From: Chloroherpetonaceae bacterium
Lineage (GTDB): Bacteria; Bacteroidota; Chlorobiia; Chlorobiales; Thermochlorobacteraceae
NCBI GenBank assembly: GCA_025056565.1
Contig: JANWWA010000008.1
Location: 62,001 to 126,000 of the forward strand
Length of the DNA: 64,000 nt
Direction of reading: 5' to 3'
Shown: positions 42,599 to 44,778 of the stretch, one piece after another
Layout of the letters: each line of letters starts with the position of its first letter
Numbering within the stretch: position 1 is the first letter of the stretch
Notes under the pieces: model-generated
Told to the model about the DNA's origin: nothing
The model's input: the letters and a program-made list of their open reading frames with translations, nothing else
The model's database searches: none
Made by a program: the position numbers and the translations under genes

Positions 42599-44146
42599 AT
42601 GAAGGTAAGTGTCTCCAAAGTCGATATCCGCACGCAAGCCTTAGATGCAGCGGGCTTCTTAGTCGCAAAAACAAATCGTCAGGAAGAACTGAGCCGACTT
42701 GCAGAGACCTTAGGGCTAAATGCATCGGGGCTCAATGGCGATTTCAAAGCAAACGAAGAAGAAGTGTTGATGTTCTATCCCAGAACGCAGGGAATCGAGG
42801 CAACGCGCGTCTGTTTGCTAGGACTAGGTGACCTTACATCGCTTGAAGCCATTCGCAAAGCTGCAGCAGCCTTTGCAACCAAAGCAAAAGACTTTCAGCT
42901 GGCAAAGGTCGGCATTGACCTCTCTAATGTCGAGATGCTCGCCAAAGCATTAGGCGAAACGCCGGACTATGTGGCACAAGCCGTGGTAGAAGGCTTTGAA
43001 TTTGGGCGATATGAGTACACCGCACTAAAGACGGAGAAAATAAAGGAACTGAAGCAGGGCAAAGCCTTCAAGCCTGAAAAGAAAGTGGAGCTAAAAGAAC
43101 TGATTCTCTTTACAACCGAACAAAGCTTCGCAGCGGTGAAGGAAGGAGCAGAAGTAGGTTATGTAATTGCCACATCGCAATCGGCAGTGCGAGACCTGAT
43201 TAATGCGCCAAGTAATTATATGACCGCAACAGACCTTGCGAATGCCGCAAAAGCCTCTGGGAAAAAGTATGGTTACAAGGTGACAGTATTCGGCAAGGAG
43301 AAGTTGAAGCAATTAGGATTTGGTGGGTTGCTGGGGGTCAATAAAGGGAGCAGTGAACCGCCCACCTTTTCGATTCTCGAATACAAACCCTCAGGCAAGG
43401 TTCGCGGCAGAGTGGCGGTGATTGGCAAAGGGGTCACGTTTGATACAGGCGGTATCTCGCTCAAGCCCGCAGAAAATATGGGCGATATGAAAGCTGATAT
43501 GTCCGGTGCAGCAGATGTCATTGGTATTGTTGAGATTGCCGCGCGCTTAAAGCTGCCGCTGCATGTGATTGGGGCCATTCCAGCAACCGACAATAAGCCT
43601 AGCGGCACAGCACAAAACCCAGGTGATGTGCTCACTACATACTCAGGCATCACGGTTGAGGTCGATAACACGGATGCCGAAGGTCGTTTGATTTTGGCAG
43701 ATGCCCTAACCTACATCAAAGAGCAGTATGAGCCAGATGCAATCATTGACCTTGCCACGCTAACGGGGGCTTGCGTGGTAGCACTCGGTAACCCGGTGGC
43801 GGGGCTATTCTGCAACAACGATGAACTAGCCGATAAGCTCTTCAAAGCAGGCTTGCGCTCAGGTGAAAAGGTCTGGCGAATGCCACTCTGGGACGATTAC
43901 GACAAGCAAATTAAGTCAGATGTAGCAGATGTGAAGAATGTGGGCGGTCGGGCAGCAGGTGCAATCACCGCAGCAAAATTTCTTGAGAAATTCATCGGCG
44001 ACCACCGTGCATGGGCGCACATTGACATTGCAGGACCTGCATTTCCCTCGATGGGTGGTAAGCAGAGCAAAGGCAGCTCTGGCTTTGGCGTCAGACTGAT
44101 TACAGAGGTGCTCCGAAGCTGGAATGGACAGGCACAAAAAAATTGA
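42599..44146 (+). CDS. pepA: leucyl aminopeptidase (M17)
   Basis: A 515-residue cytosolic metallo-exopeptidase that removes N-terminal residues. The metal and catalytic motifs are GKGVTFDTGGISLKP, MKADMSGAADV and the diagnostic NTDAEGRL, all intact. The N-terminal non-catalytic domain is present, so the length is normal. Its stop lies in an A/T-rich tract, followed by the structured RNA candidate. Confidence 0.96.
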   Translation: MKVSVSKVDIRTQALDAAGFLVAKTNRQEELSRLAETLGLNASGLNGDFKANEEEVLMFYPRTQGIEATRVCLLGLGDLTSLEAIRKAAAAFATKAKDFQLAKVGIDLSNVEMLAKALGETPDYVAQAVVEGFEFGRYEYTALKTEKIKELKQGKAFKPEKKVELKELILFTTEQSFAAVKEGAEVGYVIATSQSAVRDLINAPSNYMTATDLANAAKASGKKYGYKVTVFGKEKLKQLGFGGLLGVNKGSSEPPTFSILEYKPSGKVRGRVAVIGKGVTFDTGGISLKPAENMGDMKADMSGAADVIGIVEIAARLKLPLHVIGAIPATDNKPSGTAQNPGDVLTTYSGITVEVDNTDAEGRLILADALTYIKEQYEPDAIIDLATLTGACVVALGNPVAGLFCNNDELADKLFKAGLRSGEKVWRMPLWDDYDKQIKSDVADVKNVGGRAAGAITAAKFLEKFIGDHRAWAHIDIAGPAFPSMGGKQSKGSSGFGVRLITEVLRSWNGQAQKN

Positions 44147-44166: not shown

Positions 44167-44195
44167 TTGCAAATTTGAAATGCACGGTGTATACT
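44167..44195 (+). promoter_or_regulatory. strong predicted promoter of the structured RNA
   Basis: TTGCAA (44167-44172) and TATACT (44190-44195) are separated by exactly 17 bases. Transcription would begin near 44201, directly before the structured segment. Confidence 0.55.
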
Positions 44196-44199
44196 TGCA

Positions 44200-44275
44200 T
44201 CCACAAGTGGCAAGCAGGTCGCGCCCGCGGCCTGTGGCATACGGTGTGGGGGACGTATGCCAGCCACGTTTTTTT
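44200..44275 (+). ncRNA. candidate structured small RNA (three-way junction with intrinsic terminator)
   Basis: The transcript from 44200 can fold into three stems. The closing stem is GTGGC (44207-44211) with GCCAC (44263-44267). Hairpin 1 is CAGGTCGC (44215-44222) with GCGGCCTG (44227-44234), with one G-T pair and a GCCC loop. Hairpin 2 is TGGCATACG (44235-44243) with CGTATGCCA (44254-44262), a perfect nine pairs. The two hairpins and the closing stem are contiguous except for AAG. Loop 1 (CCC) could kiss the G-run of loop 2 (44248-44252). Seven T residues follow at 44269-44275. A promoter precedes it, so it may be a free small RNA or a leader of the DCC-family gene. I match it to no known family. 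Confidence 0.55.
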
Positions 44276-44370: not shown

Positions 44371-44778
44371 ATGCTACAGAAACCAATTCTCATTTACGAT
44401 GGCATTTGCAACTTGTGCATTCGCCTGATTCGATTCTTAGAGCCAATGAATCAATCAAGTGAAGGTGGACGAGTGATGTTTGTGCCATTTCAGAAAGCAG
44501 AAGAGTGGATAGCAAGATTTAATTTGTCGCCAAGCGCCTTGCAGGCTACCCTACATTTCATTGACCGAGACGGCAAGGTGTATGTGAGAGGTAAAGCTAT
44601 TGAAAAACTGAGCGAGTATTTCCCGCTGCTCAGAATAGGTGGCGCATTTTTTTCGACTGAACTGGGAGAAGCACTCTACAAAGTAGTGGCGCAAAATCGC
44701 TATGAAGTCTTTGGATGCGCAGATGAATGCTATGTGGCTCAAAACCCAGAGAAGCCACCAGCACGCGGAGTAGAGTAA
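44371..44778 (+). CDS. thiol-disulfide oxidoreductase DCC-family protein (DUF393)
   Basis: A 135-residue protein with the family N-terminus ILIYDGICNLCIRLIRFL, in which CNLC is the CxxC active pair in a DGxCxLC context. RVMFVPFQ and HFIDRDGKVYVRGKAI follow as usual. Members are thought to act in redox reactions, but the reaction is unproven. The start has only a weak ribosome binding site. It lies 95 bases downstream of the terminator of the structured RNA and 44 bases before sbcD. Confidence 0.83.
   Translation: MLQKPILIYDGICNLCIRLIRFLEPMNQSSEGGRVMFVPFQKAEEWIARFNLSPSALQATLHFIDRDGKVYVRGKAIEKLSEYFPLLRIGGAFFSTELGEALYKVVAQNRYEVFGCADECYVAQNPEKPPARGVE

Follow-up and report, generated by a model that had tools for sequence, protein, structure and literature searches.

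A diverged Chlorobi-1 relative in the Thermochlorobacter branch of the Chlorobiales: a candidate small regulatory RNA with an invariant UGGGGG loop

Introduction

Chlorobi-1 (RF01696) entered the literature in 2010 among structured RNAs to which no function was assigned (PMC2864571), and the table of Weinberg et al. that covers it gives "Y" for RNA, "n" for cis-regulatory and "n" for switch, with the columns as printed (PMC2864571). A literature search, which had most subscription journals outside its reach, turned up no paper on the function of Chlorobi-1.

Several better characterized RNAs offer points of comparison. The Qrr1-5 sRNAs of Vibrio are Hfq-dependent and are produced from several sRNA genes under the control of sigma-54 and an enhancer-binding protein. 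Chlorobi-1 of the Chlorobiaceae likewise has multiple small RNA genes with predicted sigma-54 and enhancer-binding-protein control, but its sequence is unrelated to that of the Qrr RNAs, Hfq was not found in the genomes searched, and the copy described here lacks a sigma-54 promoter. CsrB and RsmZ are protein-titrating RNAs, and CsrA is the best known GGA-binding protein. They resemble Chlorobi-1 in displaying a G-rich loop motif on hairpins and in their repeated modules; however, their motif is ANGGA rather than UGGGGG, and CsrA is absent from the seven genomes of the order that were tested. RepG of Helicobacter and the 6C RNA of actinobacteria have C-rich loops that pair with G-runs. Chlorobi-1 can be likened to them by loop type, since each has a homopolymeric loop as the presumed contact site, although the loop of Chlorobi-1 is G-rich.

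Results

The element lies on the forward strand of the window, i.e., the whole 64-kb stretch of DNA that was analysed, between pepA, which encodes an M17 aminopeptidase (42599-44146, forward strand), and a gene for a DCC1-like thiol-disulfide oxidoreductase (44371-44778, forward strand). The promoter (44167-44195) consists of a -35 box TTGCAA (44167-44172) and a -10 box TATACT (44190-44195), separated by the 17-base spacer that an earlier, sequence-only reading of this DNA had described. Read as TATACTTG, the -10 region is also compatible with the Bacteroidota-type -10 TAnnTTTG. Transcription would start about 7 nt past the -10 box, at approximately 44202, and the positions of the promoter and a downstream T-tract predict a transcript of about 74 nt (44202-44275). 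A 5-bp closing stem, P1 (GUGGC/GCCAC; 5' strand GTGGC at 44207-44211, 3' strand GCCAC at 44263-44267), closes a three-way junction. Within it are hairpin A (GCAGGTCGC-GCCC-GCGGCCTGT, 44214-44235), with 9 bp and a GCCC tetraloop at 44223-44226, and hairpin B (GGCATACG-GTGTGGGGGA-CGTATGCC, 44236-44261), with 8 bp and a 10-nt loop that contains TGGGGG at 44247-44252. The earlier description of an eight-pair and a nine-pair hairpin stands, except that the perfect one is the eight-pair hairpin B and two of the nine pairs in hairpin A are G-U. The junction with its five-pair closing stem was reproduced as both the minimum-energy and the centroid structure. Positions 44207-44267 fold at -34.9 kcal/mol (z -3.06; 2 of 200 shuffles equally good) and positions 44199-44275 at -36.3 kcal/mol (z -2.79). 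Behind the fold, the seven T residues noted earlier are present at 44269-44275 and, together with P1, form an intrinsic-terminator-like end; the window RNA has no separate terminator hairpin, whereas most other family copies have one.

Genome G002, of the same genus and with a PepA that is 81% identical, carries a 61-nt element at the orthologous site that differs at a single position (60 of 61 nt identical), while its flanks are essentially unalignable with those of the window except for the promoter boxes, which argues that the element is not a chance occurrence. The G002 promoter (TTGCGT-17-TATCTTTG) has the same TTGCxx-N17-TAnnnTTG layout as that of the window. Boxes are present at this site in G000, G002 and, as far as its contig end, G001, whose contig stops shortly past a similar promoter; pepA is the upstream neighbour in G002 and G001 as well. 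The DCC gene was not found in the G002 sequence read downstream of the RNA, indicating that the RNA is not a leader of that gene. Sequence and comparison thus support the original proposal that a structured RNA stands here on its own, with a dedicated promoter and terminator. In four more distant members of the family, the site after pepA lacks the motif and the copies lie elsewhere. From this comparison of loci, the copy at the pepA site is an additional one acquired at the level of the genus and has no link to the DCC gene. When the element was used as the query of a DNA search, the window's own genome proved to hold a second copy, at the nurA locus, and relatives within the genus and beyond have CGCCCG ... 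GGTGTGGGGGAC in common. The conserved nurA/redoxin-like gene locus holds Chlorobi-1 copies in families f1 and f2 (L058 5126-5179; L107 5390-5591; L108 4905-5092) and is probably the older site of such copies. In the Chlorobiaceae, an array (L059) is situated between mdh and a gene of the peptidyl-arginine-deiminase family.

The sequence-only reading had matched the RNA to no known family and had named Chlorobi-1 as the first candidate for a covariance search against Rfam. At the gathering score, Rfam returned only tRNAs over the window. When an E-value threshold was applied to 301 nt, RF01696 matched the element at 25.7 bits (E 3.5e-5), below its gathering score of 50 bits. To avoid circularity, we built a second model (R2) from Chlorobiaceae copies only, leaving out the window's family; its single match in the 64-kb window was at 44212-44266 (38.9 bits, E 1.4e-8), and it recovers most copies of families f1-f3. 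The suggestion of Chlorobi-1 was therefore well placed, and the claim that no known RNA matches can no longer be upheld. In addition, a copy in G009 (family f2) passes the Rfam cut-off at 52.9 bits and lies at the nurA locus, as does the second copy of the window genome. Given the R2 match, the Rfam score below the cut-off and the G009 copy above it at the shared nurA locus, the window RNA is, as judged from sequence, homologous to Chlorobi-1 yet outside the Rfam definition of the family.

The window RNA is predicted to be free-standing, like Chlorobi-1, and occurs in the same bacterial order. It has two directly adjacent hairpins (9 and 8 bp without a linker, in line with about 8 and 10 bp in the family), a CGCC-type loop A and UGGGGG in the loop of hairpin B; its loops, GCCC and GTGTGGGGGAC, agree with the family's CGCC(A/C)G and UGGGGG-(A)C. 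In contrast, the stem sequences are different, loop B lacks the closing U-A pair and the score falls short of the gathering threshold. The closing stem P1 is present, the separate terminator hairpin is absent and a housekeeping promoter takes the place of sigma-54. Chlorobi-1 has a conserved 3' tail in which AAAA-GCGGC precedes a terminator of its own; in the window RNA the T-tract follows directly after P1.

A further covariance model, R1, was run on 98 genomes of the order and detected one to five copies in each of 49, covering all nine genera searched; in a sample of 394 genomes from the phylum it gave no match in genera outside these nine. An R1 match is lacking in about half of the Chlorobiales genomes, although many of these are nearly complete, reflecting either patchy loss or copies that have diverged beyond the reach of R1. 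DNA-pattern scans were made of genome and viral collections, and 80 loci were read per collection; among these the RNA model fits just one, in Ca. Thermochlorobacter aerophilum OS, and the other matches, among those listed, are chance.

Compensatory changes had been proposed as support for the three stems. Hairpins A and B covary strongly: double-sided changes occur at 15 of 18 pairs in the seed alignment A1 (20 distinct sequences), which was not fitted to the structure, and at 17 of 18 pairs, with 93% of cells paired, in alignment A2 (105 copies, 97 distinct sequences), which was. P1, taken as at least five Watson-Crick pairs with near-constant linkers, is a feature of the window's family and two others. 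It was found in 16 of 21 copies from f1-f3, compared with 2.1% in shuffles, and in 8 of 80 copies from the Chlorobiaceae (f4). The f1-f3 stems comprise eight different sequence pairs with covariation at every position, and the five copies without P1 are nurA-locus copies that have a separate terminator hairpin. P1 is not part of Rfam's Chlorobi-1 model.

The sole constant part of the family is the UGGGGG of hairpin B, identical in 105 of 105 copies, although this invariance was partly favoured by the model that collected them; loop A, the stems and the flanks vary. Most copies have GCC(A/C/T) as loop A, but many copies of genus g9 have GCAA or GAAA there, with loop B unchanged. The size of loop B varies between about 6 and 10 nt, and either A or T precedes its closing C. 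On this pattern, UGGGGG is the presumed functional site.

The promoters fall into distinct classes. Chlorobiaceae copies are preceded, at an almost fixed distance, by a near-perfect sigma-54 promoter, TGGCACG-N4-TTGCA, a type associated with stress or nutrient responses. A motif score of at least 12 of 15 was reached by 48 of 55 copies in g7, 8 of 25 in g9 and none of 21 in f1-f3, against 1.4% of background windows; the -24/-12 motif TGGCAC-N5-TTGC scores 8.5 of 15 in the window, which is ordinary background. Most f1 promoters are instead TTGCAA/TTGACA-N16/17-TAnnTTTG-like; the window's TTGCxx-N17-TAnnnTTG layout is seen in most f1 and in several f2 and f3 copies. Loss of rpoN as the cause of this change is ruled out by its presence in 93 of 98 genomes, the window's own included. 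Since rpoN and several enhancer-binding proteins occur throughout, also in the window's genome, the promoter of the window's family represents rewiring rather than loss of sigma-54. At 100-250 nt upstream of the core, TGAGACA/TGTCTCA occurs at 27 sites in g7 and 15 in g9, compared with a background of 0.018 per 50 nt, the motif having been discovered in the same sequences in which it was counted; f1-f3 have zero sites. Its position matches that expected for an enhancer, and it is called enhancer-like here. At the g7 loci L010-L038 and L059, copies are often tandem, mostly each with a sigma-54 promoter about 28 nt upstream of the core. Some separate Chlorobiaceae subclasses have no clear sigma-54 promoter (L093, L095 and L101; L044, L046, L048, L050 and L096; stem GCATGCGT; loop CCGTGGGGGAAC).

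Possible partners were also sought. Hfq was detected in none of seven genomes of the order, including the window's own, while control genomes were positive, and CsrA was likewise found in none of seven. For loop B, exact 9-nt complements were looked for, as TCCCCCACA in four f1 genomes and as TCCCCCATT in six of Chlorobium type; they have few non-self sites, with no clear excess over a reversed control and no common 5' target among the sites examined. As no conserved 9-nt complements emerged, pairing would need about 6 nt, or else the partner would be a protein.

Discussion

Building on the structure, homology, promoter classes and invariant loop established by sequence comparison, we infer that the RNA is expressed, acts in trans and has RNA as its partner. 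In the Thermochlorobacter branch, a housekeeping-type promoter would drive an RNA of about 74 nt whose 3' end lies at the T-tract following P1. Two rigid, adjoining hairpins would present UGGGGG unpaired in the 3' part of loop B, and this short G-rich seed could make loop contacts with C-rich sites of partner RNAs without Hfq. Hairpin A and P1 may serve as the scaffold and, in the window RNA, also as the transcription terminator. In the Chlorobiaceae the same RNA would come from gene copies, often tandem, under sigma-54 and an enhancer-binding protein, a mode of control that would make it a conditional regulator there, while in the window's family it seems wired to the housekeeping sigma factor. 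Taken as a whole, the proposal of a free-standing, Hfq-independent regulatory sRNA of about 74 nt that acts in trans through UGGGGG on C-rich RNA sites has, in our judgement, an even chance of being correct.

The most serious competitor is that the same RNA offers UGGGGG as a docking site for an RNA-binding protein, which it would titrate or guide in the manner of CsrB/RsmZ or 6S RNA with some other protein. An invariant loop upon a rigid scaffold would suit such a role, as would several gene copies per genome and the predicted two-module transcript of G005 (L054), and the failure to find conserved 9-nt complements or Hfq points in the same direction. On the other hand, CsrA is absent, and the variable loop size, together with the A or T before the closing C, would be tolerated more easily by a seed than by a protein pocket. 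We consider protein docking possible, if doubtful, and prefer contact of UGGGGG with short C-rich sites, which is about equally likely to prove right or wrong.

The remaining explanations are far weaker. One is a ligand-binding or self-contained tertiary fold held together by the CCC/GGG loop-loop contact that the sequence-only reading had raised as a possibility. Such a contact can be drawn on paper: outside one genus, most copies have a CC in loop A that could pair with a GG in loop B. The contact is not conserved, however, as the GCAA and GAAA loops of g9 face an unaltered loop B, and the RNA has no tie to a downstream gene; this reading is very unlikely. A mere terminator or 3'-UTR element of pepA without a function of its own would explain the start 60 nt past the pepA stop and the T-tract at the end, but is at least as hard to sustain when the RNA has its own promoter boxes, which G002 and G001 keep, when homologues lie elsewhere, at nurA and in the mdh region, and when the G002 element is nearly identical between dissimilar flanks. 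Least probable of all is a degenerate CRISPR repeat or crRNA-like RNA: some Chlorobium-type copies have a hairpin A similar to a CRISPR repeat found in the order, and the inspected weak Rfam Chlorobi-1 matches L055 (G048), L057 (G065) and L109 (G027) are CRISPR arrays with the repeat hairpin CCCCACGCCCGTGGGG or a close variant and not family members, but only a single hairpin, and only in some g7 copies, shows this likeness, the stem of hairpin A in the window RNA differs, and it is hairpin B that stays constant across the family.

Chlorobi-1 and its Thermochlorobacter relatives might together constitute a regulatory RNA system that spans the order, works without Hfq and centres on the invariant UGGGGG loop. 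It would be multi-copy, sigma-54/enhancer-controlled and Qrr-like in the Chlorobiaceae, and rewired to a housekeeping promoter and compacted in the Thermochlorobacter line, with the closing stem as terminator. We put this combined proposal forward tentatively, with somewhat less than even confidence. The Chlorobi-1 family itself was known. Its description (PMC2864571) is extended here by a diverged branch, a closing stem, sigma-54 promoters accompanied by an enhancer-like motif and a single invariant site. An incomplete literature search found no paper on the branch, the stem, the sigma-54 promoters or the site. These features are the first handles on Chlorobi-1 that we have found: six nucleotides that can be targeted by mutation, a type of promoter and an enhancer-like motif that hint at how the RNA is controlled in the Chlorobiaceae, a closing stem that Rfam does not model and a group of members not recovered by Rfam.

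Genera g3 and g4 show a further arrangement, in which two Chlorobi-1 modules lie 65-96 nt apart (L054 2026-2146; L090 5300-5451; L091 4875-5023; L053 1886-2036), apparently forming one transcript with two three-way junctions.
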